In this document: piece by piece, positions 23,613 to 44,954 of the stretch
Position numbering within the stretch: the stretch's first letter is position 1
How the letters are laid out: every line of letters starts with the position of its first letter
DNA from: Bacteroidia bacterium
GTDB taxonomy: Bacteria > Bacteroidota > Bacteroidia > JADZBD01
Assembly (NCBI GenBank): GCA_020054095.1
Contig: JAGVMA010000030.1
Location: 1-64,000 of the forward strand
Length of the DNA stretch: 64,000 nt
Direction: 5' to 3'
Translations under genes and position numbers: made by a program
Notes under the pieces: generated by a model
What the model was told of the DNA's origin: nothing
The model's input: only the letters and a program-made list of their open reading frames with translations
The model's database searches: none

Positions 23613-26600
23613 TTGATAAAAAAACTACCAATACTATTTTTACTCCTTTTTAGCTCAGTAACAATTTTTGCTGCTGACTTTTTTTGGGTGGGAGGCAGTG
23701 GCAGTTGGCACGATGCTCAACATTGGGCTGTAAAAAGTGGTGGAGCAGGTGGTGCCGGAATTCCGGCCGATGCCGATAAAGCTATTTTTGATGCTGCTTC
23801 GTTTAAAAAAGCAAATGAAGAAATTAGTATAACATCAAGCATTTCAGTTAATGCCATTGATCTCAGCAAAATAAAATTTAAACCACTCTTTATTGTATCA
23901 GAAAATGTAAACGTAAATTTTTCGGGGAAAGAAGGTCCTAACGACCCTGGTATTATTGCATTCAGCCAAATGGCAATGTACAAAGATAAACTCGATGAGT
24001 TTAAGAAAAACGGATACTCTTGGCAGCCAAAAGTTGATTCTACTTCTTTAAAAAATACTGCTGTTCCTATTGATGTTTTAACGACTTGCACCATTGTGGT
24101 TACTGTATATAATTTGTGCCCGAGCCAATGTATCGGTCAGGCAATTGTAAATCACACACCCTCAACAGGAAATTTTACTTATTTATGGAGTAACGGACAA
24201 ACTACGCAAACTGCCACCGGCTTGTGTGCCGGGCAAGGTTATAGCGTATTGGTAAATAATCTCGACTCAGCTGACCAGTGCGTACAAAGTGTTGCGTTCG
24301 TGAACTATCCGCCATTTTTGAGTTTTTTTACAAGCACACAGCCACTCTGTAACGCAGCTTGTAACGGAACCGCCACTTTTAACGCAACAGGCGGAACACC
24401 GCCCTACACTTATTTTTGGACACCAACAGGGCAAACTACACAAACCGCCACGGGCTTATGTGCAGGTGGATATACCGTAGTTGCTACCGATGCTAACGGT
24501 TGTACATTTCAAAATACATTTACATTGGTACAACCACTCGCAATATCGCCAAACCCTACACAAGTTAACGTGCTTTGCTTTAATCAGTGTACAGGTACTG
24601 CTACAGTAACTCCATCGGGCGGCACTGCGCCTTACACTTATTCATGGTCAACATTGCCATCGCAAACAACAGCTACCGCCACAGGTTTGTGTGCAGGTTC
24701 ATATACCGTAACAATTACTGACAATAATGGCTGTACACGCACGAATGCGATTACAATTACACAACCTACACAATTAAACATAACCGCAACCACAACCGGA
24801 AATCCTTTGCCCTGTAGTAATAGTTGTTCAGCTACAGCTACAGCAAACCCAAGTGGTGGCACAGCGCCTTATACTTATTTTTGGTCGCCAGGTGGACAAA
24901 CAACACAACTTGCAACTGGCTTATGTGCGGGAACATATACAGTAGTGGTTACCGATGCCAATGGCTGTACACGGCAGCAAACGGTTAATATTACAGCCCC
25001 TCCGGCTTTAACTTTAAATATAGCATCAACCAATAACCCATTAGCTTGTTTCGGAAATTGTAATGCAACACTCACTGCCACAGTCGGTGGAGGAACTCCG
25101 GCATACACTTATTTGTGGACTCCGGGAAATCAAACTACCGTTACAATAACAGGACAGTGCGCTGGCAGTTATACTGTTACGGTTACTGATGCAAATGGTT
25201 GTACCATTCAGCAAAACATAACTGTAACACAGCCCACACAAGTTCAGGTAAATGGTTCGAGTGTTAACTTAAACTGTAATAATGTTTGTTCCGGAAGTGC
25301 AACTGCAAACCCATCGGGTGGTACACCACCTTATACTTATTCGTGGACCCCCGGCAACGCTACCACATCGAGTATTGCCGGCTTATGTGCCGGAACGTAT
25401 ACCGTAACCGTAACCGATGCGAATGGGTGTACACAGCAGCAGGTATTTAATATTACACAGCCACCACCAATTGTTCCGAATCAAACAAGTACAAATATCC
25501 CGTGCTTTGGTTTGTGTGTGGGCACGGCAACTGTAAATCCTACTGGTGGTAACTCGCCTTATACTTATTTATGGTCTCCGGGCGGGCAAACAACAAATTC
25601 CGTAACAGGCTTGTGTGCAGGTAACTATACAGTTGTAATTACCGATGCAACAGGATGCACGCGCCAACAGGTATTTAATATTACAGAGCCACAGCCATTA
25701 GTTCTCACACCATCACAACAACCATTGCAATGTAATAACACTTGTATAGGCGTGGCTGCTGTGAGCGTTGCGGGTGGTACAGCAGGTTATTCCTATTTAT
25801 GGACCCCAGGTAATTTCACAACATCTACCATCACCGGCTTGTGTGCAGGAACATATACTTGTGTGGTTACCGATGCCAATGGATGTACGCAAACGACCAC
25901 CGTTACTATAGTGCAACCCACACAAGTGAGTGTGGCCACTGCAAGTAATAATGTGCAGTGTAACGGCCAATGCAACGGCTCTGCTTCCGCACTTGGCGGT
26001 GGCGGCTCACCACCATACACTTATCAATGGATGCCGGGTGGTCAAACCACTACAAGCATTACAGGCCTCTGTGCCGGAACTTATACTGTAACAGTAACCG
26101 ATGCCAACGGATGTAGTGTTACCAATACCATTACTATCACCCAACCTCAGCCCATTTTACCAAACTTAAATACTACCAACGTGCAATGTAACGGTGGTTG
26201 CACAGGTGCATCAGCTGCAAACCCATCGGGTGGTACAGCACCATATACCTATTTATGGATGCCGGGAAATATTACTACACAATCGGTAACTGGCTTGTGT
26301 GTGGGCTCATATACCTTAACCATTGCGGATGCTAATGGCTGCACAGCTCAGCAGATAATAAATATTACACAGCCCAGCGGACTATCATCAAGCATTACCT
26401 CATCTACAACGAGTTGTAATGTTTGTAATGGATCAGCCACTGCTAATGCTACTGGTGGAACATTACCTTACACATTCTCTTGGGCTCCGGGCGGGCAAAC
26501 TACACAAACCGCAACAGGTCTTTGTCCGGGCACATACACAGTTTTTGTAACTGATTTAAACGGTTGCACTTCGCAGTCGGTGGTTAATATTTTGCAAACA

Positions 26601-29600
26601 GTGCAGATTAACGTAACCACTTCTAATAATACTCCAAGTTGTTTTGGCTCATGCGATGGAATAGCAACCGCTAATCCAACAGGTGGTCAACTACCTTACT
26701 CTTACTTGTGGAATCCTTCTAACCAAACCACACAAACTGCCACCGGTTTGTGTGCCGGAACTTATACCGTAACGGTTACCGATGCCAACGGATGTTTTAA
26801 CACATCAATAGTAATATTTACAAATCCTCCTCAATTAACCGCTAACGCTGCTATCACAAATGTTACTTGTAATAATTTATGCAACGGAGCCATTTCTGTA
26901 ATTCCGGGTGGAGGCACGCCCGGTTACACTTTTGCTTGGTTGCCAGGCGGACAAACCACCGCTACCGTTACCGGATTATGTGCAGGTAGCTACACGGTAA
27001 CAGTTACCGATGCCAACGGATGTACTAATCAGCAAGTATTAAATGTTTCACAAGCACCGCCAATTATTGTTACACCTACTAACACATTACCCGCCTGCAA
27101 CCAATGTAACGGCCAAATTGTTTTGAACCCTTCAGGTGGTTCAGGCATTTATACTTCTTTTGTTTGGACACCCAACGTATCATCATCAGGCACGGCAATT
27201 AATTTGTGTGCAGGTGTTTATACAATTGTGATTACCGATAATACAGGATGCTCACAAACGGTAACCGTGAATTTGAGTAACCAAAACGGCCCCAGTGCAG
27301 TTACTGCATCCACTAACGCAACATGTAATGGCGGATGCAACGGAACTGCATCGGTTGGTAGCATTGTAGGCACCGGTCCATTTACTTTTGATTGGTTACC
27401 GGGCACGCCCACAGGCGATGGCACACAAAACATAAGTAACCTTTGTGCCGGAACTTACACCGTGCAAGTTACCGACCAAGGCACAGGTTGTATTTCTTTA
27501 TTTAGTGTAACCGTAACCGAACCTGCTGTTATAGCCGGCAATGCAATCATTACCAATGCATCGTGTAATGGCAACTGTAACGGAATTATTAACTTAAGCC
27601 CTTCGGGCGGAACACCCGGCTACACTTATTTGTGGACACCCGGAAACATGACTACGCAAAACGTAACCGGGCTTTGTGCCGGAAATTATACAGTAGTAAT
27701 TACCGATGCCGCAGCATGTACACAACAGCTCACATTTACAATTACTGAACCTGCTGTACTTAATGTTCCCGTTTCATCAACCGATGTTTTATGTAACAGC
27801 GCTTGTAACGGAACTGCTACTGCAAGCCCTACTGGCGGAACATCGCCTTATATTTATTTATGGTCGAACAACCAATCGTTGCAAACAATTGTAAACCTTT
27901 GCCCGGGTACTTACACGGTAGTGGTAACCGATGCCAATGGTTGCACATCGCAAAACACAGTAACCATTGCACAGCCCAATGCAATTACTTCATCAGAAGT
28001 GCATGTGGATGCTACTTGTAATAGTGGTTGCGATGGCACAGCAACTGTAACACCAAGTGGCGGAACCGCACCATTTACATTCTTGTGGTCTCCGGGTGGA
28101 ATGATTACAGCGAGCGTAACCGGACTTTGTGCAGGAAATTATAATGTAACCATTACCGATGCCAATGGCTGCACTCTTGTGCAAAATGTTTCAATAGCTC
28201 AGCCAACTGCCATTGCACCTAATGCTACTGCAACTAACGCAAGTTGTAATGGCGGCTGTAACGGAACAGTTACTGCAAGCCCAACGGGTGGTACACCTAA
28301 CTATACATTCCTTTGGAATCCGGGTGGATTTACCACGCAATCGGTTACAGGGCTTTGTGCCGGAAATTATACGGTAACAATTACTGATGCTAATGGTTGT
28401 ACGCAAAACCAAGTGGTTACAGTTATGCAGCCATTAATATTACAAGCCAATACTTCATCCACAAGTCCATTGTGCAATGGCAACTGCAACGGCAGTGTTT
28501 TAGCAAATCCAATTGGTGGCACAGGTCCGTTTACCTATTTGTGGTTGCCCGGAAATCAAACAACACCTTCGGTAGGTGGCTTGTGCGCGGGTTCTTACAC
28601 AGTAATTGTTACCGATGCCAACGGCTGTACCGACCAGCAAACAATTAACGTAGTTGATCCGCCATTACTAACATCGGTACAAGCAGTTGCTAATGCCAAC
28701 TGCAGCCAGTGCAACGGAACCATAACGCTTACACCTAGCGGAGGTACGCCTAACTACACATTTGCTTGGTTGCCCGGAAACATGACAACACAAACGGTTA
28801 CAGGGTTATGCGCAGGTGTTTATACAGCCACCGTAACAGATGCAAGCGGCTGCACCATTCAAGTGCAAATTCCGCTTAGTAATAACAATGGTCCGGTTTT
28901 AACTTCATCATCTACTTCACCTACCTGTTTTAATGCCTGTACCGGAACAGCAAATGTTCTTGTAACATCTGGCAACGGGCCATTCACATTTTCTTGGTCG
29001 CCAGGCGGACAGACAACCGCAAGCGTTACAGGATTATGTGCCGGCACTTATTTCTGTATTGTTACCGATGCCAACGGCTGTATAACCATTGAAACAATAA
29101 CTATTACCCAGCCGCCACAAATGTTATCGAACGCAACAGTGGTGAACGCAACCTGTAATGGTATTTGCGATGGAAGTATAACACTAAGCACATCGGGCGG
29201 AACATTGCCTTACACTTATTTGTGGAGTAACGCTGCTACCACTTCCGCTATTACAGGATTGTGCGTGGGAGCATATTCTGTAACCGTAACCGATGCGGTT
29301 GGTTGTACTGCTGTATTTAATTTTAACATTATTGGTTCTATAGTTGTAAGTGCAACTGCTTCATCTACCAATGCGGGCTGCAACGGCAACTGCAGCGGAA
29401 CAGCCACTGTTACCAATGTTACAGGCGGCACATCACCATACACTTATCAGTGGAGCGATCCTAACGGACAATTTACACCTACTGCTACCGGCTTGTGTGC
29501 AGGCACTTATACTGTTACCGTTACCGATTATAATGGCTGCGTGGGAACACAAACTGTTACCATCACTCAACCACAAGCAATAGTTGCAAATCCTAATATA

Positions 29601-31697
29601 ACAGATGCTACTTGTGGCCAGTGCAACGGACAAATTGTTTTAACACCAAGTGGTGGTACAGTGCCTTACACATTTATATGGAGCAACAATGCCACTACAC
29701 AAAACATAAGTAATTTATGTGCCGGTGTTTACATGGTTACTATCACCGATGCAGTTGGCTGCACAGCCACATTTAACATTCCTGTAAATAACTCAGGCGG
29801 ACCTACGGGAACTGTTGCAGTTACAAACCCAAGCTGTTTCGGGGCATGCGATGGTTCGGCAACTGTTACTCCGAGCGGTGGCACACCACCATATACATTT
29901 AACTGGGTGCCAACCGGGCAAACTACTGCTACCGTTACAGGTTTGTGTGTGGGCACCTATATTGTGCAAATACAAGATTCATTGGGCTGTATCGGAAATG
30001 TAACAGTTACTATTTCTACGCCAACGCAAATAATTCCTAACCCAACTATTGTGCACACCGATTGCGGAATTTGCAACGGCTCTATTTCGCTTAATCCATC
30101 GGGCGGAACAGGTCCTTACACTTATTTGTGGCAGCCGGGTAATTTAACCACACCGGCAATAAATAATTTATGCGCAGGTAATTATACCGTTACCATTACG
30201 GATGCTAACGGCTGTACAAGCCAAACAATTATAGGTGTGCAAAATATAAATGGCCCAACAGCTACAGTTACTTCTACCAATCTTTCGTGCAATGGCGCGT
30301 GTAACGGAACTGCTACGCTTACGGTTGTTGGCGGAACTTCGCCTTATACTTTCTTGTGGAGCAATGGCGCCACCACTCAAAACTTAACCGGATTATGTGC
30401 CGGCACTTATGCAGTTACAGTAACCGATGCAGCCGGATGCGTGGATGTACTTTCTGTAACTATTACACAACCTCCGCCAATTGTATTTAGTTTTTCATTT
30501 TCGCAAGATCCATTGTGTAACGGAAACTGCAATGGTGTAATAACCGCAATACCATCGGGCGGAACATTGCCTTATACTTATGCTTGGAATAATGGAGCCA
30601 CCACACAAACCATTTCAGGCCTTTGTGCCGGAAACTACAGCGTGATTGTAACCGATGCCAACGGCTGTACCGCAACGCATTTCGATACGTTGGTTGACCC
30701 GCCAGTTTTAAATATTACCGGAGGCATTATAACACCTGCAAGTTGTAACACAATTCCTGATGGAGCTATTGATATTACAGTAGTAGGCGGCACACAGCCA
30801 TATTCATTCTCGTGGACGCCAAGTAACCAAACCACCGAAGATTTATCAAATGCATTTATTGGAAACTACACCGTAACCGTAACCGATGCCAATGGCTGTA
30901 CGGATACTGCACAGTTTACAATAACATCCACTGTTACGGTTATTGCTAATGCGCTTGGCGCAGATACCACTTGCCCTGGCACTTGCACCATGTTAGATGG
31001 CAGCACAAGTATAAATGCTGTTACATTCCAGTGGATAGATGTGCAATCGAATAACGTAATAAGCACTAGCGATTCGGTATTAGTTTGCCCTACCACATCG
31101 GGAGCTAATTTCTTTGCGCTGATAGCAACTAACGGTGCATGTTCCGATACCGATACAGTTGTCATTTTCATCAACACACCACCTGTTGCCGATGCCGGAC
31201 CTAATCAAACAATATTATCAGGCACAAGTACAATTATTGGCGGAAACCCTACGGGGCCTATTGGTTCTACCTATAGCTGGTGGCCTGCGCAAGGCGTGGG
31301 TGCCGATACTTCACTTTCTAATCCTACAGTAGCACCTTCAGTTACTACCATGTACTATGTATTGGTTACCGATGCCAATGGTTGCACTTCATTAGATTCG
31401 GTGCTGGTAACGGTAATTCCTGATATTATTTTCCCTAATGGAATATCGCCCAATGGCGATGGGGCAAACGATGAATGGATAATTGATGGCATAGAATTTT
31501 TCCCTGATTGTGTAGTAGAAATTTACAATCGCTGGGGCGAGTTATTGTTCCGATCGGTAGGTTATCCGCCTAATGGCAGATGGAAAGGGCTTTATAAAGG
31601 GAAAGAACTTCCGGTTGGAACTTATTATTACATCATAGATTTAAAAAGCGAATTTTTCCCTAATGCTTTCACAGGCCCAATAACCTTAATGCGATGA
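23613..31697 (+). CDS. Giant SprB-like surface adhesin, T9SS type B sorted
   Basis: A 2694-residue protein starting with TTG (MIKKLPILFLLLFSSVTIFAA is a proper signal peptide). Residues about 22-75 contain an FWVGGSGSWHDAQHW domain common at the N-terminus of Bacteroidota adhesins. About 30 SprB-type repeats of roughly 76 residues follow (residues about 158-2430), each with GG-PYTY-W, GLCAGTYTVTVTDANGC. A cysteine-poor Ig/PKD-like region precedes the gliding-motility-associated C-terminal domain (FPNGISPNGDGANDEW ... YNRWGELLF), the type B sorting signal. SprB in Flavobacterium is the mobile surface adhesin of gliding. The next gene is PorP/SprF, overlapping by 4 nt, the same pairing. Gliding itself cannot be shown here. 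Confidence 0.92.
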   Translation: MIKKLPILFLLLFSSVTIFAADFFWVGGSGSWHDAQHWAVKSGGAGGAGIPADADKAIFDAASFKKANEEISITSSISVNAIDLSKIKFKPLFIVSENVNVNFSGKEGPNDPGIIAFSQMAMYKDKLDEFKKNGYSWQPKVDSTSLKNTAVPIDVLTTCTIVVTVYNLCPSQCIGQAIVNHTPSTGNFTYLWSNGQTTQTATGLCAGQGYSVLVNNLDSADQCVQSVAFVNYPPFLSFFTSTQPLCNAACNGTATFNATGGTPPYTYFWTPTGQTTQTATGLCAGGYTVVATDANGCTFQNTFTLVQPLAISPNPTQVNVLCFNQCTGTATVTPSGGTAPYTYSWSTLPSQTTATATGLCAGSYTVTITDNNGCTRTNAITITQPTQLNITATTTGNPLPCSNSCSATATANPSGGTAPYTYFWSPGGQTTQLATGLCAGTYTVVVTDANGCTRQQTVNITAPPALTLNIASTNNPLACFGNCNATLTATVGGGTPAYTYLWTPGNQTTVTITGQCAGSYTVTVTDANGCTIQQNITVTQPTQVQVNGSSVNLNCNNVCSGSATANPSGGTPPYTYSWTPGNATTSSIAGLCAGTYTVTVTDANGCTQQQVFNITQPPPIVPNQTSTNIPCFGLCVGTATVNPTGGNSPYTYLWSPGGQTTNSVTGLCAGNYTVVITDATGCTRQQVFNITEPQPLVLTPSQQPLQCNNTCIGVAAVSVAGGTAGYSYLWTPGNFTTSTITGLCAGTYTCVVTDANGCTQTTTVTIVQPTQVSVATASNNVQCNGQCNGSASALGGGGSPPYTYQWMPGGQTTTSITGLCAGTYTVTVTDANGCSVTNTITITQPQPILPNLNTTNVQCNGGCTGASAANPSGGTAPYTYLWMPGNITTQSVTGLCVGSYTLTIADANGCTAQQIINITQPSGLSSSITSSTTSCNVCNGSATANATGGTLPYTFSWAPGGQTTQTATGLCPGTYTVFVTDLNGCTSQSVVNILQTVQINVTTSNNTPSCFGSCDGIATANPTGGQLPYSYLWNPSNQTTQTATGLCAGTYTVTVTDANGCFNTSIVIFTNPPQLTANAAITNVTCNNLCNGAISVIPGGGTPGYTFAWLPGGQTTATVTGLCAGSYTVTVTDANGCTNQQVLNVSQAPPIIVTPTNTLPACNQCNGQIVLNPSGGSGIYTSFVWTPNVSSSGTAINLCAGVYTIVITDNTGCSQTVTVNLSNQNGPSAVTASTNATCNGGCNGTASVGSIVGTGPFTFDWLPGTPTGDGTQNISNLCAGTYTVQVTDQGTGCISLFSVTVTEPAVIAGNAIITNASCNGNCNGIINLSPSGGTPGYTYLWTPGNMTTQNVTGLCAGNYTVVITDAAACTQQLTFTITEPAVLNVPVSSTDVLCNSACNGTATASPTGGTSPYIYLWSNNQSLQTIVNLCPGTYTVVVTDANGCTSQNTVTIAQPNAITSSEVHVDATCNSGCDGTATVTPSGGTAPFTFLWSPGGMITASVTGLCAGNYNVTITDANGCTLVQNVSIAQPTAIAPNATATNASCNGGCNGTVTASPTGGTPNYTFLWNPGGFTTQSVTGLCAGNYTVTITDANGCTQNQVVTVMQPLILQANTSSTSPLCNGNCNGSVLANPIGGTGPFTYLWLPGNQTTPSVGGLCAGSYTVIVTDANGCTDQQTINVVDPPLLTSVQAVANANCSQCNGTITLTPSGGTPNYTFAWLPGNMTTQTVTGLCAGVYTATVTDASGCTIQVQIPLSNNNGPVLTSSSTSPTCFNACTGTANVLVTSGNGPFTFSWSPGGQTTASVTGLCAGTYFCIVTDANGCITIETITITQPPQMLSNATVVNATCNGICDGSITLSTSGGTLPYTYLWSNAATTSAITGLCVGAYSVTVTDAVGCTAVFNFNIIGSIVVSATASSTNAGCNGNCSGTATVTNVTGGTSPYTYQWSDPNGQFTPTATGLCAGTYTVTVTDYNGCVGTQTVTITQPQAIVANPNITDATCGQCNGQIVLTPSGGTVPYTFIWSNNATTQNISNLCAGVYMVTITDAVGCTATFNIPVNNSGGPTGTVAVTNPSCFGACDGSATVTPSGGTPPYTFNWVPTGQTTATVTGLCVGTYIVQIQDSLGCIGNVTVTISTPTQIIPNPTIVHTDCGICNGSISLNPSGGTGPYTYLWQPGNLTTPAINNLCAGNYTVTITDANGCTSQTIIGVQNINGPTATVTSTNLSCNGACNGTATLTVVGGTSPYTFLWSNGATTQNLTGLCAGTYAVTVTDAAGCVDVLSVTITQPPPIVFSFSFSQDPLCNGNCNGVITAIPSGGTLPYTYAWNNGATTQTISGLCAGNYSVIVTDANGCTATHFDTLVDPPVLNITGGIITPASCNTIPDGAIDITVVGGTQPYSFSWTPSNQTTEDLSNAFIGNYTVTVTDANGCTDTAQFTITSTVTVIANALGADTTCPGTCTMLDGSTSINAVTFQWIDVQSNNVISTSDSVLVCPTTSGANFFALIATNGACSDTDTVVIFINTPPVADAGPNQTILSGTSTIIGGNPTGPIGSTYSWWPAQGVGADTSLSNPTVAPSVTTMYYVLVTDANGCTSLDSVLVTVIPDIIFPNGISPNGDGANDEWIIDGIEFFPDCVVEIYNRWGELLFRSVGYPPNGRWKGLYKGKELPVGTYYYIIDLKSEFFPNAFTGPITLMR
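24084..30902 (+). repeat. About 30 tandem SprB-type repeats (about 227 bp each)
   Basis: Internal repeats of the giant adhesin gene. The protein motif is well kept while synonymous codons differ from unit to unit (GATGCCAACGGATGT, GATGCTAATGGTTGT and so on), so the array is old and held by selection on protein rather than recently amplified. Most units have two cysteines near the start (CNGxCNG), one in LCAG and one in DANGC. Confidence 0.88.
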
Positions 31698-32638
31698 TGA
31701 GAAAAATAAAAATAGTATGCTTCCTCACGGCTGTGTTTTTCTTTAACGCACAAGCGCAGCAGTTGCCGTTGTATTCACAATACATGGTTAATGATTACAT
31801 GATGAATCCGGCAATAGGAGGGAAGAACGATTATTTTGTTGCCATGTCGGCCAATCGCTACCAGTGGATAGGAATTACTGATGCACCACGCACTTACACA
31901 CTTAGTGTGCACGGTCCGGGCAAACGAAAAAACATTGGCTTAGGCGGATACTTGTTTACCGATATTGTGGGCCCAACACGCAGAATAGGTGCAAGTTTCA
32001 CGTATGCCTATCACGCCAAGCTGAACGATGAATATAAGTTGAGCATGGCGCTTTCGGGCGGACTGCTTCAATTTTCGGTTGATGCATCAAAAATAACCTT
32101 ATACGACCCTGTAGATTTAGTTATCAGCAATGGCTACCAGCGTGTGCTGCTGCCCGATTTTGGAACAGGATTTTATTTGTATTCAAAAAAACTATACGTA
32201 GGCGTTTCTGTTCCGCAAATTTACCCTGCTAAAATTCGCTTTTTTGATTATACCACTAATACCCGTGCAAAATTAGCAACACACGTTTATGCAAGTGCCG
32301 GATATAAATTCGATTTGGGCGAGGATTTTAAAATAGAACCATCCATCCAATTCAAATACGTGAAACCGGCACCCATGCAATTTGATTTTGGCGCACGCTT
32401 GTTTTACAAAGAAAAAATTTGGATTGGCGGCTCGTTTCGCACACGCGATGCTGCAGCTATGATGGCAGGTTTTGTTTACCGCGAAAATTTAGCATTTAGT
32501 TATTCTTACGATTTAACAACCACCAATATTAAAAACTACAGCACCGGAACACACGAAGTTATCATCTCCATAAAATTTGGCAAAAACGCACCCTTAGTGC
32601 CCCCGCCAAATAAAAACTCCGCTCCGCAGTTTAATTAG
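31694..32638 (+). CDS. PorP/SprF-family type IX secretion membrane protein
   Basis: A 314-residue outer-membrane protein with a signal peptide ending NAQAQ. Family signatures: LPLYSQYMVNDYMMNPAIGG (about 24-43), YQWIGITDAPRTYTLSVHGP (about 55-74) and an alternating beta-strand pattern to the C-terminus. SprF in Flavobacterium johnsoniae is needed for secretion of SprB, and PorP-like proteins tether type B cargo to the T9SS. The start overlaps the adhesin stop by 4 nt (ATGATGA; ATG 31697 is an alternative), so the pair should be made together. Confidence 0.9.
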   Translation: MMRKIKIVCFLTAVFFFNAQAQQLPLYSQYMVNDYMMNPAIGGKNDYFVAMSANRYQWIGITDAPRTYTLSVHGPGKRKNIGLGGYLFTDIVGPTRRIGASFTYAYHAKLNDEYKLSMALSGGLLQFSVDASKITLYDPVDLVISNGYQRVLLPDFGTGFYLYSKKLYVGVSVPQIYPAKIRFFDYTTNTRAKLATHVYASAGYKFDLGEDFKIEPSIQFKYVKPAPMQFDFGARLFYKEKIWIGGSFRTRDAAAMMAGFVYRENLAFSYSYDLTTTNIKNYSTGTHEVIISIKFGKNAPLVPPPNKNSAPQFN

Positions 32639-32690: not shown

Positions 32691-33434
32691 TTATATTTTT
32701 TCGTAAGTGCCGTACAAGTTTCCAAAGTTCGCTGCTTTTACTCTAAAGCCACTTCCGTGGTCGTGAGTTTTGCCATAATTTTTTCCTGAATTGTAAACGC
32801 CAATTCTAATGTCAAACATAATTCCACCTTTTTCAATTTCTTTCAAAAATTTTTCAAAATCAAAATCTTTATATACTTCGCCTGCTATGAAGTGGTAATT
32901 GGTTTTCTTATTTATTATTTTGGTGTCAGCAAAAACCAAAAATAAATCTTTCATTTTTGAAGAAGCTTTTTTTAGCGTTTCAAAGTCCCACGAAACAGTT
33001 GAGAAATGCATGTCATCCAAATCCCTGATTACAAGATCTAACCTTTTATTTTTTCTATCAACCATCAGTTTCATCTTGTATTTTGAGTAAACTATTGAAA
33101 TACGGTGTCCAAATACAGAAGCGTACAACTTTTTCTTGTCAGAATGATTTTTATCTCTGATTTCCCCAAAATTTTCACGCAAATATGAGTTTGCCCGTTT
33201 TGGGTTGTCGGGCGATTTGGTAAATAACGAAACATAAGAACTATTAAAAAGGCGCTTACTTTTTACTTCAAAACCCTTGAAATCAGCTTCTTTTTTGTTG
33301 TTTTCGGTAACGCCTAATAAATCTTCAAATGTATTTCCAATTCCACCGTCCTTATTGTTTGGCCTTGTACACTCTACAAATCCCAATTTTTCAATTTGGT
33401 TAAATACCTTTTTTAGTTTGTCTAAGTTTTTCAT
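32691..33434 (-). CDS. MvaI/BcnI-type restriction endonuclease
   Basis: A 247-residue type II endonuclease of the MvaI/BcnI family, whose known members cut CCWGG and CCSGG (family knowledge). Visible: GIGNTFEDLLG (31-41), then Asp51, Glu56 and Lys58 in EADFKGFEVKSKR, the D-ExK metal site at the spacing reported for MvaI; a C-terminal HDHGSGFRV (224-232) supplies conserved histidines. Length matches MvaI. Its ATG overlaps the controller gene stop by 4 nt (ATGA), so the two are translationally coupled. The cut site here is unknown. Codons are more A+T-rich than in the neighbours, suggesting horizontal gain. Confidence 0.85.
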   Translation of the reverse strand: MKNLDKLKKVFNQIEKLGFVECTRPNNKDGGIGNTFEDLLGVTENNKKEADFKGFEVKSKRLFNSSYVSLFTKSPDNPKRANSYLRENFGEIRDKNHSDKKKLYASVFGHRISIVYSKYKMKLMVDRKNKRLDLVIRDLDDMHFSTVSWDFETLKKASSKMKDLFLVFADTKIINKKTNYHFIAGEVYKDFDFEKFLKEIEKGGIMFDIRIGVYNSGKNYGKTHDHGSGFRVKAANFGNLYGTYEKI

Positions 33435-33658
33435 AAAGGTTTTTTAGGTAATAAATCTTTTGGACTAATTCCTAGCGCTTTTGAAATATTATTAATATGA
33501 TTAAGATTATATTTTGAGTTATATTTAAAACTCTCTATCTTGCCTATAAAGCCTAATGAAACGCCAATTCTATCGGATAATTCGGCTTGAGAAATTTTTT
33601 TTGCAGTTCTAAGCTCTTTTACTTTGTTAATGGCAAATATTTCTATTTTTGTCAGCAT
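33431..33658 (-). CDS. HTH (XRE) controller protein of the R-M system
   Basis: A 75-residue helix-turn-helix protein. The KISQAELSDRIGVSLGFIGKIES segment (about 20-42, quoted in part) is a Cro/C1-type DNA-binding unit, and size and position fit R-M controller (C) proteins, which delay endonuclease expression until the methyltransferase has acted. It is first in a C-R operon and overlaps the endonuclease ATG by 4 nt. A candidate operator is at 33712-33724. Confidence 0.82.
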   Translation of the reverse strand: MLTKIEIFAINKVKELRTAKKISQAELSDRIGVSLGFIGKIESFKYNSKYNLNHINNISKALGISPKDLLPKKPL

Positions 33659-33677
33659 CTTTTTGTTATTAATTTCT

Positions 33678-33709
33678 TTTGTAAAAATTAGATATATAAC
33701 CTACCTTTA
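33678..33709 (+). promoter_or_regulatory. Promoter for the methyltransferase
   Basis: TTTG (33678-33681), 20 nt, then TACCTTTA (33702-33709): a -33/-7 pair near consensus, 33 nt before the ATG at 33743. It overlaps the promoter of the opposite strand. Confidence 0.42.
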
Positions 33710-33712
33710 CAA
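33683..33712 (-). promoter_or_regulatory. Promoter for the controller-endonuclease operon
   Basis: On the minus strand TTG (complement of 33710-33712) is followed after 19 nt by TAATTTTT (complement of 33683-33690). Spacing is exact; the -7 box is one base from consensus. The candidate controller site lies immediately upstream of the -33 element. Confidence 0.4.
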
Positions 33713-33724
33713 CTACCTATGAGT
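33712..33724. promoter_or_regulatory. Candidate controller (C-box) operator
   Basis: ACTACCTATGAGT is an imperfect palindrome with ACT...AGT ends, resembling the ACTYATAG core recalled for C-boxes. It abuts the -33 element of the C-R promoter and overlaps the likely start of methyltransferase transcription, so one bound site could activate one side and repress the other. Single site seen; inference. Confidence 0.3.
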
Positions 33725-33742
33725 AAGTGTTTTTATTTTTAG

Positions 33743-34483
33743 ATGGAAATAAATAAAATATATAATGAGAGTTGTTTGGATACATTAAAACGTATACCCA
33801 ATAATTTTATTGATTTAGTTATAACCTCTCCACCATACAATATGAATTTAAGAATTCGTAATGGAGAATATTGTTCACGCCAAATTGTAAAAGAATTTAG
33901 CACTAAGTACGAAGGGTTTGACGATAATTTACCAATAAAAGAATATTACGAATTTCATTTGAATGTTTTAAAGGAACTTTTAAGAACTTCTAATATTATT
34001 TTCTATAACATTCAAATTGTTACAGGAAGTAAAAGGGCTATTTTTAAAATTATTGGTCAATTGTCAGACTATTTGAAAGATATAATTGTTTGGGATAAAG
34101 GCTATGCACAACCAGCAATGGCTTCAAAAGTATTGAATCGTAGAACGGAATTAATTTTAGTTTTTGATAATAACAACGGCATTAGTCGTCAATTTGATAA
34201 AGCGAATTTTGATAGAGGCACTTTAGATGACCTTTGGCTCATAAAGAGAGGAAAAAAAGTAACAGATAGTCATTCTGCTGTTTTTCCAGAAGAATTGGTT
34301 AAAACAACTATTGAGAATTTTTCTAATGAAGGAGATTTGATTTATGACCCTTTTATGGGAACAGGAACGACTGCAATAGTTGCAAAGAAGTTAAATCGTA
34401 ACTATTTAGGCAGTGAATTGTCCGAAAAATACTTTAAAGTCATAAACGAAAGACTACAAGTGTTTGAAAATGAACTTTTTTAG
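33743..34483 (+). CDS. DNA methyltransferase of the R-M system (beta class, probably N4-cytosine)
   Basis: A 246-residue N6/N4 methyltransferase. The catalytic motif IV TSPPYN (28-33) is N-terminal and the SAM-binding motif I DPFMGTGTT (202-210) is C-terminal, the beta-class order. SPPY rather than DPPY is typical of N4-cytosine enzymes, which fits known partners of MvaI and BcnI. Transcribed away from the controller and endonuclease genes from an 84-nt shared region. Target inferred only from the partner. Confidence 0.85.
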   Translation: MEINKIYNESCLDTLKRIPNNFIDLVITSPPYNMNLRIRNGEYCSRQIVKEFSTKYEGFDDNLPIKEYYEFHLNVLKELLRTSNIIFYNIQIVTGSKRAIFKIIGQLSDYLKDIIVWDKGYAQPAMASKVLNRRTELILVFDNNNGISRQFDKANFDRGTLDDLWLIKRGKKVTDSHSAVFPEELVKTTIENFSNEGDLIYDPFMGTGTTAIVAKKLNRNYLGSELSEKYFKVINERLQVFENELF

Positions 34484-34593: not shown

Positions 34594-34776
34594 CATTGCT
34601 TCATTGTATTGCCTTAAAACAATGAAACAATACTCCATTGTTTCATAAGAATGGAGCAAACCAATAAAACTTTACCCCATTGTTTCATAAGAATAGAGTA
34701 AATCAATGAAACAATACCCCATTGTTTCATAAGAATGGAGTAAATCAATGAAACAATACTCCATTGTTTCATAAGG
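34594..34776. repeat. 42-bp tandem repeat with internal palindromes
   Basis: Units begin with CATTG at 34594 (degenerate), 34636, 34678, 34720 and 34762 (partial), exact 42-nt steps. Each carries ATTGTTTCAT and ATGAAACAAT, which are reverse complements; ATGAAACAAT-ACTCC-ATTGTTTCAT junctions can form 10-bp hairpins with 5-nt loops. No spacer variation, so not CRISPR. Confidence 0.85.
34614..34772 (-). other. Small open frame encoded by the 42-bp repeat
   Basis: On the minus strand ATG at 34772 opens 52 codons to TAA at 34614-34616 because 42 is divisible by 3. The product is a hydrophobic 14-residue repeat, MKQWSIVSLIYSIL three times with changes plus a partial unit. No promoter or SD is apparent, and differences between units include non-conservative ones, so translation is uncertain. 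Confidence 0.2.
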
Positions 34777-34970
34777 TTATTGTATTCTTTTGTGTTTTCT
34801 CCTTAAACTTTAAGCCTTTTTCTCGCATTTTTTGCAAAAAACACTCATTTTTTGGCATATTTCAGTTAAAAATTATGGTAGCCATCCGCCTCTTTGTTTC
34901 TTTTATCGTTTTCTGCATTAGGCACAAATTAATGGGTACTAAGCCGTTTAAAACTATTTGCAGCTTGGCC

Positions 34971-34978
34971 TATGTTTG
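34971..34978 (+). promoter_or_regulatory. -7 box (TATGTTTG) before the TonB receptor gene
   Basis: TATGTTTG matches TAnnTTTG, 28 nt before ATG 35007. TTTA at 34947-34950, 20 nt upstream, is a plausible -33 element. Confidence 0.45.
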
Positions 34979-35006
34979 TTGCACACAAATAATAAATTTA
35001 CAAAAC

Positions 35007-37409
35007 ATGAAAAATAAAGCCCCAGTCATTTTAGCAATTTTTAGCTTCTGCATCCTCATCGCGCAAGCACAAATAACCCAAACCATACGCGGCAAAGTAT
35101 TGGATAAAGAAAGCCAAACCGAAATAATAGGCGCCAATGTTTTTTTAACCAGCGATAGCACCCAAAAAATTGCAGCTACTACTGATGTTAGCGGCAGCTT
35201 TAGATTAAGCAATGTGCCTGTGGGCAGGCATAGCATAAAAGTTACCTTTATAGGTTATAACGAAGTGCTGCTGCAAAACCTAATAGTGGATGCCGGCAAA
35301 GAACTTATCTTAAATATACTGATGGAAGAAATGGTGAACACCATGGACGAAGTAGAAATTACCGCCAATAAAAAAGGCGAAACCAATAACGACATGAGCA
35401 CCGTTAGCAACAAAAGTTTTTCGATGGAACAAACCGACCGCTATGCCGGCAGCCGCAGCGACCCTGCCCGCATGGCATCTAACTTTGCAGGCGTTAATGG
35501 CGCTAACGATTCGCGAAACGATATTGTAATACGCGGCAATTCGCCCATGGGTTTGCTTTGGCGCGTGGAAGGTATTGATATTCCTAACCCTAATCATTTT
35601 GCAATACCCGGCACCACAGGCGGTGCCATAAGCATATTGAACAATAAAATTTTTGGCGTTTCCGATTTTTATACCGGAGCATTTCCGGCCGAATATGGCA
35701 ATGCAAATGCAGGTGTGTTTGATATAAAACTCCGCAACGGTAATAACGAAAAATTTGAATTCACAGGTCAGCTTGGTTTCTTGGGTACCGAACTTGCCGG
35801 TGAAGGCCCGATAAATAAAAGCAAAGGCTCATCGTTTTTGTTTACCTATCGTTATTCTACTTTAAAATTATTCGAATCGTTTAATTTTAAAATCGGCACA
35901 TCGGCAGTTCCTGCTTATCAGGATGCATCGTTCAAGTTAAATTTCCCCACCAAGAAAAGCGGCATATTCAGTATATGGGCTATAGGCGGAACAAGCAATA
36001 TTAATATTATGCTGAGCGATAAAACGGTGGACGAAGTGGAACTATATGGCGATAATAACCGCGACCAATATTTTAAAACTTCGATGGGCGTGGGTGGATT
36101 TACGCACACCAAATCGGTTAACGATAAATCGTATGTAAAAACTACGCTTGCTTTTTATGCTTCAAGCGCCTTAGCCGACCACGATATTTTTTACCGCGAT
36201 ACCGTTTCGTTTTTAGTAGATACCGTTTTTGCGAAAATGCGTTACCGATATGTATCTAACAAAGCATCGCTCAATCATGCGTTCACGCATAAATTTAGCG
36301 CCAAGCACAGCATTAAAACAGGGCTGCTTGCCGATGCTATTTTTTATAACATGATTGACAGTAATTTATTTGAATCGGCAAATGAATGGCAAGTGCGTAA
36401 TAATATTGCCGGCAATACTTTTTTAATACAGCCCTATTTTCAATGGAAATATAAACCCAATAATAACTTAACGGTTAATGCCGGCTTGCATGCACAGTAT
36501 TTTGCGCTGAGCAATAGTTTTTCGGCAGAACCAAGGGCAGGAGTAAAGTGGCAATTGAAAAACAATCAGGCATTATCGTTTGGTACAGGCATGCACAGCC
36601 AGGTGCAGCCGCTTTATATTTATTTGAATCAGCAAAAAAATGCCAATGGCGAATATGTGCTGCACAATAAAAATTTAGATTTTACACGCGCCATTCATTC
36701 GGTGCTTGGTTACGAAAGAGGATTAGGAAAAAACACACGCATGGTTCTTGAAACTTACTATCAGTATTTGTATAACATTCCGGTAGATAATTTTTCATCG
36801 GCATTTTCGTTGGTTAATCAAGGTTCCACCTTTAGCCGCTTTTTCCCCGATACATTGGTTAACAGCGGCACGGGCTTTAATTACGGTATGGAATTAACCA
36901 TCGAGAAATTTTTCAGCAAGCAGTATTACTTTTTATTTACTGCAAGTTTTTACGAATCGAAATACAAAGGCAGCGATAAAGTTTTGCGCAGCACCGATTA
37001 CAATGGCCGCTATGTGCTAAATGGTTTGTTCGGCAAAGAATTTAAATTAGGCAATAGCGGAAACAAAACACTAAGCACCGGAACAAAAATAACTTGGGCA
37101 GGCGGCAAATTATATACTCCTGCCGATTTAGCTGCATCAAAATTAGCGGGCGAGTTAATTGAAATTGATTCGCTGCGCAATACGGTTAGGTCGGCAAATT
37201 ATTTCCGCCTCGATTTTAAAATTGGCTTTAAAGTGAATACCAAAAAACTAACGCATGAATTAGCGATAGATTTGGTAAACGTGCTGAATAACAAAAACGT
37301 ACTCGGCATAACTTATGCCCCCGATCCTAAAAATCCTACGGCAAGTCCCATCCGCGAAGAATATCAACTCGGCTTTTTACCGCTTTTTTACTATAAACTC
37401 GATTTTTAA
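35007..37409 (+). CDS. TonB-dependent outer-membrane receptor
   Basis: An 800-residue receptor for import across the outer membrane. ATG 35007 gives the signal peptide MKNKAPVILAIFSFCILIAQ. A carboxypeptidase-regulatory-like domain (IRGKVLDKESQTEIIGANVF, about 28-47) is followed by a plug (about 120-230, with NDIVIRGNSPMGLLWRVEGI) and a beta-barrel to the C-terminal Phe. No SusD-like partner is nearby, so it is not a classical polysaccharide SusC pair; the substrate is unknown. Confidence 0.88.
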   Translation: MKNKAPVILAIFSFCILIAQAQITQTIRGKVLDKESQTEIIGANVFLTSDSTQKIAATTDVSGSFRLSNVPVGRHSIKVTFIGYNEVLLQNLIVDAGKELILNILMEEMVNTMDEVEITANKKGETNNDMSTVSNKSFSMEQTDRYAGSRSDPARMASNFAGVNGANDSRNDIVIRGNSPMGLLWRVEGIDIPNPNHFAIPGTTGGAISILNNKIFGVSDFYTGAFPAEYGNANAGVFDIKLRNGNNEKFEFTGQLGFLGTELAGEGPINKSKGSSFLFTYRYSTLKLFESFNFKIGTSAVPAYQDASFKLNFPTKKSGIFSIWAIGGTSNINIMLSDKTVDEVELYGDNNRDQYFKTSMGVGGFTHTKSVNDKSYVKTTLAFYASSALADHDIFYRDTVSFLVDTVFAKMRYRYVSNKASLNHAFTHKFSAKHSIKTGLLADAIFYNMIDSNLFESANEWQVRNNIAGNTFLIQPYFQWKYKPNNNLTVNAGLHAQYFALSNSFSAEPRAGVKWQLKNNQALSFGTGMHSQVQPLYIYLNQQKNANGEYVLHNKNLDFTRAIHSVLGYERGLGKNTRMVLETYYQYLYNIPVDNFSSAFSLVNQGSTFSRFFPDTLVNSGTGFNYGMELTIEKFFSKQYYFLFTASFYESKYKGSDKVLRSTDYNGRYVLNGLFGKEFKLGNSGNKTLSTGTKITWAGGKLYTPADLAASKLAGELIEIDSLRNTVRSANYFRLDFKIGFKVNTKKLTHELAIDLVNVLNNKNVLGITYAPDPKNPTASPIREEYQLGFLPLFYYKLDF

Positions 37410-37470
37410 TTAACACATCTTATTTTTTCTGAAAGCCGAAGACAAGTTTTTGTCGTAGCTAATAAGTTCT

Positions 37471-37500
37471 TTGTCGGCATTTGCCCCCAAATGCCAACAA
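37471..37500. other. Stem-loop between the TonB receptor and the broken T9SS gene
   Basis: GGCATTTG (37476-37483) and CAAATGCC (37488-37495) pair with a 4-nt loop; TTGT and ACAA extend the stem after one mismatch. No U tract. A small GACAA-GTTT-TTGTC hairpin lies at 37441-37454. Possibly a weak terminator or leader structure. Confidence 0.35.
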
Positions 37501-37550
37501 ACTGTTAATAACAATGCTTTAAAGAATGCCCTCGTATTATCTGATTTTAT

Positions 37551-37558
37551 TACTTTCG
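37551..37558 (+). promoter_or_regulatory. Weak -7-like box (TACTTTCG)
   Basis: One base off TAnnTTTG, 44 nt before ATG 37603. Same deviation (TTCG) as the box before the M14 gene. Confidence 0.22.
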
Positions 37559-37602
37559 TTGTCCTTAAAAAAACTCTAAACAAATACATAACCCTATACA
37601 AA

Positions 37603-40600
37603 ATGAAAAAATTAGTATCCATCATCTCGTTCTTACTTGTAGCAGTTTACTCACAAGCGCAAGTTGCTACCGGCTACACATTTAGCCAAACTGCTACTGC
37701 TTACACTCCCATAACGGGCGGTGCAGTATTAGGCAATCCTTCTAACGATGACAATGTGTTTAATGCATTGCCAATTGGTTTTCCGTTTTGGTATAACGGA
37801 GTGGCCTATTCCACTTTTTCTGCAAACGCCAATGGCTTTATTGCTATGGGCAACACAGTTGTGAGTTCTTATACTTCTGTTTCGACAGGTATAATTAATA
37901 ACTTAATAGCTGCTCTCAACTTTGATATACAAGCCAATGTGGGCGTAGGCGAAATGCGTTACCAAACAATAGGTACTTATCCTAATCGCACATTGGTTGT
38001 GCAATGGTCGAGCTACCGCCCATTTAACTCCACTGCGGGCGAAATATATAATTTCCAAATCAGACTTAACGAAACCACCAATACACTCGAAGCAGCTTAT
38101 GGTTCGTTTATACATCCGGGCGCCCTTCGCACAGCAGAAGTTGGCTTACGCGGAAACAGCAATGCTGATTTTAATAACCGCCAAGTAGTTAATGGCGTAC
38201 AGACTTGGAGTACTTCTGTTGCCGGTGCTGTTAACACTGCAAACTGCGAATTAAATAACACGCCATTGGTTCCGCCAAGCGGCTTGCGCTTTGTATGGAC
38301 TCCGGCCACATCTGCCGCACCAACAACTATGACCTTTACAGCAGTTACTACATCAGGCATGACTGTTAACTGGCTCGATAACTCAACCGATGAAACTTCA
38401 TTTGCTTTATTTAATTCTACGGATAACGTAAACTTTAACTATGTAGCATCGGTAGCATCGGTTTCTACACCTACAACAGGTAATCCGTATAACTACGTAG
38501 CTACGGGCCTTTCATCTAACACACTTTATTACTGGCGTGTGATGGCAGTTAATATGGCGCCCGGCTCGCCACTTAGCGGGCAGCAAGCAACTTTGCCCGG
38601 AACCATGTGCGGTACTTACACCATCGGCCCCACTGGAGCGTATACATCTTTAACCGCAGCGATTGCTGCCGTGCAAACTAACGGTATTAATTGCCCTGTA
38701 ATTTTCGATTTACAAGCAGCTTATGTAAGCACCGTTGAAACTTTCCCGATAGTGATCCCTAACTTAGGTCTATCATCTACAAATACCATAACCGTTCGCC
38801 CCGAAATAGGCGCTACTAACTTATCTATAACAAGTGCTGCTACACAAACTATTGATTTAAGTGGCTCTTCTTATTTTAATTTTGATGGTCGCCCGGGCAG
38901 TGTAGGAACTAATCGCGAGCTAACTATTGCCAATACATCAATTACCGGAAACGCAATACGTTATATTAACGATGCGCGGTTTAATGGCTTAAACTTTATG
39001 AAAGTGAGAGGCGTGAACACATCTGCTACAAATGGTGTGGTTTTATTTTCAACTGCAATTGTAAACGGAAATGGTAACAGCAATAACACCATCAACAACT
39101 CGGAGCTTTTTGATGGCGCAACAACACCCGCCAACCTTATTTATTCTACTAATATTATAGCAGGTACTTTTAATGCTCAAAACAGCATAACTAATAGTTT
39201 GTTTTATAACTTTTTTAGTGCCTCGGCTACATCATCGGCAATTACAATTGCAAATAATTCAAGCGCATGGACAATTAATAACAATGATTTTTACCAAACC
39301 GCAACACGTACTTTTACTGCCGGGGTTGTTCACCTTGTAATTTCGGCTACTACTACCTTAGGCGGATTTACTATTAGTGGTAATGATATTGGTGGCACGG
39401 CAATAAACACTGGCGGCACTGCTTATACTATGAATGGTGCTTTTACAAGCCGCTTTGTAGGTATTAATTTTGCAGGTGGCCCTGTTAACTCATTTATTTA
39501 TAATAACAGAATTACCAATTTCAACTTCACTACAACTAATACCTCAACTACCGTTGCCGGTATTTGGTGCGGTATTGTTGTATCGGCAGGTAATGCCGAA
39601 ATAGGACTTCCTACTTTTGGGAATCAAATAGGAAGCACAACGGCCGCCAACCAAATTGTTACCTCTTCAAGTGGCAATGGCGCGCTTACGGTGGGTATTA
39701 ATTCGTCTTCAACCGGAACTGTGAAAATTGAGTTTAATCAAATAGGTGGTATTACAGCTAATAGCTCAGCATCAACTGTTTCATCGAGCATAATGGGTAT
39801 TAATATTTCGGGGGGCACAGGTGCAGTATTAACAATTTCTTCAAATACAATTGGCAGCACAAGTATTAATAACAGTATTATTAATGCTGTGAGTACAGGT
39901 GTTACAGGCGGCCATGTAACGGGCATCATCTCTGGAGCGACAAGTGCACAAACTACTATTTCGGGCAACACCATTCAAAACCTAACAAACCAATATGCCG
40001 GAACTGCTACTACAGGACAAACGCGCGGAATTGTAACTACTTCAGGTGTTAATACTATTACCGGTAACACAATTTCTATTTTATCAAACCTATCACCACA
40101 AACAGGAACAGGTACTGCTGCATCGGTACTTGGTATTTCGCAGCAATCTATTACTGTTGGTCAGCAAATAGTTAGTTTAAATACTATTAGCGGATTAGCT
40201 AACGGAGCGGCAGCAGGTGCAGTAAGCATAATAGGTATTAATTTCACTAATAGCGCAACTGCACCAGAGGGTCGTGTGTTCCGTAATAACATTTCTACAT
40301 TTGCATCAAACTCAAGCGGCATTGCATCCATTTTAGGTATAAACGTAACCGGTGGCGTTTCGCGCTTTTATAACAACTTTATTAATTTAGGTTTAGATGC
40401 GCTAAGCAATCCAATAGTAAATGCACACCAATACATAGGTATAAACAAAACATCAGCTACCAACATTAAGTTTTTCTATAACACGGTTTCTATAGCCGGA
40501 ACAGGAGTTAATACAGGTGTGGTTGATACTTACGCTTTCCGCAGAACAGCAAATTCCACAACTGCAATTGACTCGGTGTTTAACAATATTTTCTCTAACA

Positions 40601-41388
40601 CCCGTTCAAATGCAACTACTGGCGGCACACACTATTCAATAGGAATTAATTCGGTAACACAATTTATTTCTAACGCGAATAACTTTTATGGTAACGGAAC
40701 CGGCTACCAAACGGGCTTGGTAAACGCTACACAGTATTTAACACTTCCACTTTGGAATGCAGCTACAAGTTTTGATGCTAACTCTTTTAACGTAAATCCC
40801 AACTTTGTGAGCGCATCAAACTTGCACTTACAAAATTCTCCTGCTACTCCGTTAGAGTCTTACGCAATTCCTATTTCCGGAATTAACATTGATATAGATG
40901 CAGACACACGTCCGGGTCCGGTTGGCTCAGTAAATGGCGGTGGAACTGTGCCTGATATTGGTGCTGACGAGTTTGATGGTTTCCCGATTTTAATTGACAT
41001 GGGAGTTCAATCATTATTATTACCAACCACCACAGGATGTAAAACCGCAACGGAAACTGTGCGTGTAAGAGTTAGAAACTACAGCAATACAACAATTAAC
41101 TTCGCTGTTAATCCGGTAACTGTGAGTTCATCTGTAACAGGCCCTAATCCACAAGTATTCCCTAACCTTGTTTTATCAAGTGGCACTTTACCCGGAAATG
41201 CTACACTCGATACTATTGTTGCCATTAACTATAACATGACTGCTGTAGGAACTTATGTGTTTAATGCCAACACGAGCATGACTGGTGAAATAGTAGTATC
41301 GAACAATGCTATTGCCCCCGTGAGCACTGTAATTAGTGGAGGTACCGCAACGTTACTCCTAACCCTGTGTGTGCAGGAGCTAACGTAA
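37603..41388 (+). CDS. T9SS surface protein with FN3 and beta-helix, 5' part of a frameshifted gene
   Basis: Codes for 1261 residues before TAA 41386-41388, the last 12 or so out of frame. ATG 37603 gives signal peptide MKKLVSIISFLLVAVYSQAQ. A beta-sandwich domain (about 21-215), an FN3-like domain (about 220-320, VNWLDNSTDETSFALF) and a long right-handed beta-helix of short Asn/Gly/Ser-rich turns with NTIGST-type motifs (about 340-1090) follow, then a CARDB-like stretch (about 1130 on). Homology continues in another frame from about 41346-41352, so a 1-nt loss joins this to the next entry. As it stands the product lacks the sorting tail and would not be exported by T9SS. Confidence 0.8.
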   Translation: MKKLVSIISFLLVAVYSQAQVATGYTFSQTATAYTPITGGAVLGNPSNDDNVFNALPIGFPFWYNGVAYSTFSANANGFIAMGNTVVSSYTSVSTGIINNLIAALNFDIQANVGVGEMRYQTIGTYPNRTLVVQWSSYRPFNSTAGEIYNFQIRLNETTNTLEAAYGSFIHPGALRTAEVGLRGNSNADFNNRQVVNGVQTWSTSVAGAVNTANCELNNTPLVPPSGLRFVWTPATSAAPTTMTFTAVTTSGMTVNWLDNSTDETSFALFNSTDNVNFNYVASVASVSTPTTGNPYNYVATGLSSNTLYYWRVMAVNMAPGSPLSGQQATLPGTMCGTYTIGPTGAYTSLTAAIAAVQTNGINCPVIFDLQAAYVSTVETFPIVIPNLGLSSTNTITVRPEIGATNLSITSAATQTIDLSGSSYFNFDGRPGSVGTNRELTIANTSITGNAIRYINDARFNGLNFMKVRGVNTSATNGVVLFSTAIVNGNGNSNNTINNSELFDGATTPANLIYSTNIIAGTFNAQNSITNSLFYNFFSASATSSAITIANNSSAWTINNNDFYQTATRTFTAGVVHLVISATTTLGGFTISGNDIGGTAINTGGTAYTMNGAFTSRFVGINFAGGPVNSFIYNNRITNFNFTTTNTSTTVAGIWCGIVVSAGNAEIGLPTFGNQIGSTTAANQIVTSSSGNGALTVGINSSSTGTVKIEFNQIGGITANSSASTVSSSIMGINISGGTGAVLTISSNTIGSTSINNSIINAVSTGVTGGHVTGIISGATSAQTTISGNTIQNLTNQYAGTATTGQTRGIVTTSGVNTITGNTISILSNLSPQTGTGTAASVLGISQQSITVGQQIVSLNTISGLANGAAAGAVSIIGINFTNSATAPEGRVFRNNISTFASNSSGIASILGINVTGGVSRFYNNFINLGLDALSNPIVNAHQYIGINKTSATNIKFFYNTVSIAGTGVNTGVVDTYAFRRTANSTTAIDSVFNNIFSNTRSNATTGGTHYSIGINSVTQFISNANNFYGNGTGYQTGLVNATQYLTLPLWNAATSFDANSFNVNPNFVSASNLHLQNSPATPLESYAIPISGINIDIDADTRPGPVGSVNGGGTVPDIGADEFDGFPILIDMGVQSLLLPTTTGCKTATETVRVRVRNYSNTTINFAVNPVTVSSSVTGPNPQVFPNLVLSSGTLPGNATLDTIVAINYNMTAVGTYVFNANTSMTGEIVVSNNAIAPVSTVISGGTATLLLTLCVQELT

Positions 41389-44879: not shown

Positions 44880-44911
44880 TAACAGCCAACAACTGATAAG
44901 TTTTAGTGTTA

Positions 44912-44937
44912 AAAGGCCCGCCTATTGGCGGGCTTTT
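44912..44937 (+). terminator. Intrinsic terminator abutting a promoter box
   Basis: GCCCGCC (44916-44922), loop TATT and GGCGGGC (44927-44933), extended by A-T pairs, followed by T44934-44941. It ends the broken T9SS gene; the next gene's -7 box begins in its T run. Confidence 0.9.
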
Positions 44938-44940
44938 TTT

Positions 44941-44948
44941 TATCTTTG
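44941..44948 (+). promoter_or_regulatory. -7 box (TATCTTTG) for the P-domain gene
   Basis: TATCTTTG matches the consensus exactly and lies 6 nt before ATG 44955, leaving little or no leader. It shares its first T with the U tract of the preceding terminator. No -33 TTTG at the usual distance. Confidence 0.45.
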
Positions 44949-44954
44949 CACAAA

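Follow-up and report, generated by a model that had tools for sequence, protein, structure and literature searches.

The SprB-repeat gene and its neighbours

The window analyzed here comprises 64,000 nucleotides of contig JAGVMA010000030.1 from a Bacteroidia bacterium (assembly GCA_020054095.1). Its forward strand carries, at 23613-31697, an ORF with a TTG start that encodes a SprB-repeat T9SS substrate of 2694 amino acids. The SprB repeat model PF13573 matches this ORF in 27 stretches (E 3e-217; 702 bits against a curated cut-off of 28), and a type-B T9SS C-terminal signal covers residues 2607-2694 (TIGR04131, 58.2 bits against 35). A signal peptide, read from the sequence, and an N-terminal non-repeat domain without cysteine (23613-24086) are followed by Cys159 in the linker directly before unit 1 (24087-24089) and by 29 consecutive SprB units of about 76 amino acids, each with four cysteines (24090-30668). 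After the last SprB unit (30669-30899) come two PKD-like domains with approximate boundaries, the first (30933-31172) with the same four-cysteine layout as the SprB units (residues 2454, 2458, 2492, and 2510) and the second at 31173-31412, and finally the type-B T9SS C-terminal sorting domain (31431-31694; TIGR04131/PF13585).

The adhesin ORF is adjoined on the same strand by the gene for an outer-membrane partner of the PorP/SprF family (31694-32638; TIGR03519, E 4e-81). The repeat family, the T9SS signal and the SprF partner are all of already known kinds: SprB of Flavobacterium johnsoniae and its PF13573 relatives share the repeat profile, the type-B T9SS signal, an adjacent PorP/SprF partner, and near-constant first and fourth cysteines (C1 and C4 below). 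In the Bacteroidota, SprB-type proteins are the adhesins that bear force in gliding and attachment. In F. johnsoniae, twin cysteines in the C-tail of SprF link it to GldK (PMC12635249), whereas the PorP/SprF protein of the window has no cysteine after its signal peptide and lacks this C-tail pair. There is thus no indication of a moving gliding adhesin, although GldK is encoded in the same genome.

Just downstream of these two genes lie a gene for an MvaI/BcnI-type restriction endonuclease and one for an N4/N6 DNA methylase (32691-34483), and the region 34764-47498 encodes a series of further secreted or surface proteins, with type-A T9SS tails on two of them, Ig_7 domains, and a proprotein convertase P-domain. 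The genome holds 132 SprB-repeat matches on about 20 contigs, many of them at contig ends, which suggests further giant adhesins at which the assembly was broken by the repeats.

Splitting the ORF into units yielded 30 recognizable SprB-type units, with C1 residues spanning 169 to 2378. Four cysteine sites were defined: C1 belongs to the motif CNG and C2 follows it at three to four residues, while LCAG contains C3 and DANGC contains C4. The first-pass annotation had described C2 and C3 as two extra cysteines (CNGxCNG, LCAG) present in nearly every unit, and 29 of the 30 units indeed carry all four, with a C1-C2 spacing of CxxxC or CxxC. It had also described their joint loss from the last unit, and this is exactly what is seen there: C2 and C3 are absent (CNTIPDG, AFIG), while C1 (30744-30746) and C4 (30897-30899) are retained. 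Although that unit is the final SprB unit, the cysteine pattern goes on after it, through the four-cysteine PKD-like domain and into a PKD-like domain with C4 only.

SprB units were gathered from the organism's own genome, from 118 genomes drawn across the phylum, of which 27 had SprB matches, and from 79 loci of named genome contigs; they were realigned to an iterated profile and scored at the four sites, giving 1986 units in 146 ORFs. C1 and C4 alone are present in 1334 of them, and 474 carry all four cysteines, so that the four-cysteine unit occurs well beyond the 2694-residue protein. What sets this protein apart within PF13573 is that nearly all of its units have the otherwise optional C2 and C3. 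Couplings between alignment columns were calculated by a mean-field analysis of 1778 neighbouring unit pairs that was blind to which columns are cysteines.

Two pairs of co-varying cysteines

C2 and C3 behave as a pair within the repeat, as the first-pass annotation had proposed for a second disulfide. Both are present in 490 units, neither in 1463, and only one in 33 (phi 0.957), and theirs is the top intra-unit coupling, with a z of about 26 as compared to about 10 for other column pairs. In the 2694-residue protein itself, 29 joint presences and one joint absence, taken with the family phi of 0.96, are far above chance. Since tandem repeats copy units, and the C2/C3 state does correlate between neighbouring units, the co-variation might reflect whole-unit copying by recombination without any structural coupling. 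However, copying does not account for the excess of this coupling over that of other column pairs, and the pattern recurs in 43 ORFs in which four-cysteine and two-cysteine units are mixed, with 208 joint C2/C3 switches between adjacent units. Further, five of the seven units with C3 only have a cysteine elsewhere as a possible partner: L115, L157 (twice), and L079 keep C3 and have another cysteine in the loop that leads to strand E, and in L073 an insertion shifts C2. We therefore regard copying alone as a very improbable explanation.

Units with C2 but not C3, or the reverse, which the first-pass annotation had named as evidence against the bond, were looked for; many of the 33 discordant cases can be explained and few remain. 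Many belong to Ig_7/PKD-like domains whose early cysteine was scored as C2. The CxxC units of L149 (C1 and C2, no C3) are succeeded by a C4-less unit, which would fit a bond between their own C1 and C2; being three tandem copies, they count as one event. The units left without explanation are a CPTC unit of L106, a CxxC unit of L144 without C3, and a few others. Taken together, the co-variation supports a C2-C3 disulfide that would act as an optional clamp inside each module.

The outer cysteines behave differently. The model of the first-pass annotation places both a C1-C4 and a C2-C3 disulfide inside every repeat; in its favour, C1 and C4 occur together in most units, and C2 and C3 co-vary. 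However, C1 and C4 of one unit are not correlated (phi -0.018), 98 of the 100 units that lack C1 retain C4, the two are never co-absent from one unit in chains, and their intra-unit coupling ranks 4235 of 4970. A first hint at another pairing came from the order of units in L077 and L083, in which C1 goes with the C4 of the next unit. Across the 1986-unit set, C1 of unit n and C4 of unit n+1 are correlated (phi 0.486, p 1e-23), and their coupling ranks first of 5625 inter-unit couplings. The opposite direction, C4(n) with C1(n+1), was rejected (phi 0.012). Co-absences of C1(n) and C4(n+1) number 18 in 10 ORFs, as compared to a maximum of 10 in 2000 within-ORF shuffles, and with L077 left out there are still 11 as compared to a maximum of 6. 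The association was replicated in L110-L188 alone, which were fetched after the idea had been formed (phi 0.546, p 6e-15). As C1 and C4 are seldom missing, the coupling rests on 47 junctions without C1, and a few discordant junctions remain. Both cysteines of the outer pair being intramodular is accordingly a reading to which we give very little credence. The number of two cross-links per repeat stands, but one would lie within the repeat and the other between repeats, rather than both within.

The spacing of C1 and C2 (416 CxxxC and 68 CxxC among the related units) resembles a metal-binding or thioredoxin motif, and together with the two further cysteines it might be read as a zinc-ribbon-like set of metal ligands or as a redox motif instead of structural disulfides. 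However, the two pairs vary independently of each other, as seen from the many units with C1 and C4 only and from a C1-C2 phi of -0.005, C4 is coupled to the C1 of the previous unit, and disulfides are usual in secreted surface proteins. Metal or redox sites thus appear very unlikely here, and we favour two kinds of disulfide, one inside the module and one between modules.

Module geometry, compensation, and chain ends

The AlphaFold2 model of three units (27978-28661), built from an alignment of 81 sequences, has a mean pLDDT of 97.9 and a pTM of 0.83. Each unit is predicted to have strands A, B, C, E, F, and G; C1 falls in the A-B loop and C2 where strand B starts, while the E-F turn holds C3 and the F-G turn C4. 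In Ig and FnIII folds, the A-B and E-F connections lie at the C-terminal pole and the F-G connection at the N-terminal pole. Combining this layout with the predicted strand positions would put C2 beside C3 and make C1 of one module face C4 of the following one, while C1 and C4 of the same module are expected at opposite poles, which again argues against their pairing. The length of the A-B loop of unit n predicts the linker that follows the unit (OR 33, p 2e-76) and not the one that precedes it (OR 1.15, p 0.44). Units with a short A-B loop (C-x3-[ND]G) form a junction subtype in which the next linker lacks the usual QP/EP and often reads NGP; in the 2694-residue protein, examples are the units at 27024-27251 and 28629-28853.

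Junctions at which C1(n) is absent show signs of compensation. Of 40 such junctions, 18 also lack C4(n+1), and another 18 gain a cysteine in the linker before unit n+1, for example in L106 (VVVDSFTCPPVQ), where it recurs along the array. The remaining four apparently involve Ig_7/PKD-type domains whose early cysteine sits four residues past the aligned site. By contrast, where C1 is present, a linker cysteine is found at 57 of 1731 junctions and C4(n+1) is missing at 10 of 1731. A second AlphaFold model, of L179, in which C1 is lost and a linker cysteine gained, has a confidence of 96.6.

If bonds run from each unit to the next, neither C4 of the first unit nor C1 of the last unit of a chain should have a partner. 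C4 is missing in 26 of 106 first units as compared to 39 of 1766 internal units (p 3e-17), and C1 is missing in 36 of 114 last units as compared to 57 of 1766 internal units (p 3e-22). In the 2694-residue protein, the final PKD-like domain has C4 (residue 2591, 31383-31385) and no C1, as predicted for a chain end, whereas C4 of unit 1 (Cys223) has a candidate partner in Cys159, at the same place as the compensating linker cysteine of homologues. Alternatively, cysteines might bond between chains to give a bundled fibre, which is conceivable for the leftover cysteines C750 and C1815 discussed below. However, the losses at first and last units, and the fact that the loss of a cysteine is tied to the neighbouring module of the same chain, speak for bonding within one chain, and we consider a bundled fibre highly unlikely. 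From these patterns we infer that the inter-module C1(n)-C4(n+1) bond, or staple, would be near-universal in SprB repeats.

A proposed disulfide-stapled rod

We hypothesize that the T9SS exports this adhesin and that SprF anchors it as a rod in which about 32 Ig-like modules follow one another, each with two kinds of disulfide. The clamp would join C2 to C3 at the C-terminal pole of the module, connecting the beginning of strand B with the E-F turn, and its two cysteines would be gained or lost jointly. The staple would span the junction between two modules, running from C1 in the A-B loop of module n, at the C-terminal pole, to C4 of module n+1, which sits in the F-G turn at the N-terminal pole. 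Such a stalk would be stiff, nearly inextensible, and protease-tolerant, so that the adhesin would be held extended and force passed on without unfolding. On the strength of the sequence data we consider this architecture, a T9SS-exported and SprF-anchored rod with an intra-module clamp and an inter-module staple and probably serving as a stiff stalk, very likely to be right. Within it, the covalent pairing of the cysteines is strongly supported by the co-variation, the near-inextensibility of the rod is a calculated property, and the stalk function is a likely consequence.

Applied to the 2694-residue protein, the pairing rule uses 124 of 127 cysteines, which form 30 clamps, 31 staples, and a further staple at the N-terminal linker, leaving C750 and C1815 in strand F and C2633 in the sorting domain. 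As the staples overlap, each peptide bond from residue 159 to residue 2591 would be under one or two of them. The shortest covalent path between these residues was computed as about 404 steps, while the bare backbone takes 2432 and the pairing of the first-pass annotation 876. At about 0.36 nm per residue, 404 steps amount to about 145 nm; by our own estimate, 32 folded modules of about 4 nm each would have a similar length. The covalent path being close to the folded length, the rod should hardly lengthen under load even with its modules unfolded.

Other cysteines recur in the modules of the family. A strand-F cysteine (TYTC) is found at 25860-25862 (C750) and 29055-29057 (C1815), and in L140 and 34 other ORFs, amounting to about 5% of units; it has no co-occurring partner and is often present in adjacent units. 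In units of many loci (L162, L156, L110, and L112, for example), two further pairs are seen: cysteines in strands F and G co-occur in 23 of 25 cases in 16 ORFs, and cysteines in strands B and E in 12 of 14 cases in 9 ORFs. Thus, modules seem to use a menu of disulfides that would include optional F-G and B-E pairs.

Among solved structures, GhpA of Aureispira (PDB 9flw, 9fls, 9flp) is the best structural match (Foldseek E 5e-9) and the strongest PDB sequence match (E 6.5e-37). A phmmer search of the PDB with three units of the 2694-residue protein gave weak FnIII/phage matches only, and a profile made from one unit missed GhpA. Apart from this distant match, the sequence searches brought up no solved structure of a SprB repeat. 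GhpA likewise has tandem Ig-like modules, with an early cysteine and a DANGC-type cysteine in the stretches shown, but identity is about 22% over aligned columns and the global TM-score is modest. Tandem FnIII/Ig arrays such as those of fibronectin, titin, and NCAM are also built from head-to-tail beta-sandwich modules. The classical Ig disulfide connects strands B and F within a domain, whereas the conserved bond of SprB repeats would lie between modules. Gram-positive pilins and adhesins are cross-linked by intramolecular isopeptide bonds, and there, too, the proposal is that covalent bonds keep a surface stalk from stretching; by contrast, the SprB rod would use disulfides, and across module junctions. 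A search of the literature on SprB repeats, adhesin interdomain disulfides, and GhpA, in which most subscription journals lay outside coverage, brought up no account of disulfides between the repeats of SprB proteins.

In the organism's own genome, Pfam models gave no match to DsbA, DsbB, or VKOR, despite its very cysteine-rich secreted proteins. If the proposed pairing is true, more than 100 cysteines would be oxidized per chain in a genome without a recognized DsbA, DsbB, or VKOR, pointing to another oxidizing route. The staple reading would apply to ordinary two-cysteine SprB repeats as well, beyond the 2694-residue protein. It is somewhat more probable than its opposite that SprB repeats across the Bacteroidota form inextensible, chain-mail-like rods through overlapping inter-module disulfides, with optional clamps (C2-C3, B-E, F-G) tuning stiffness module by module. 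Such repeat-to-repeat locking would account for the ability of stalks thousands of residues long to bear load and stay extended.
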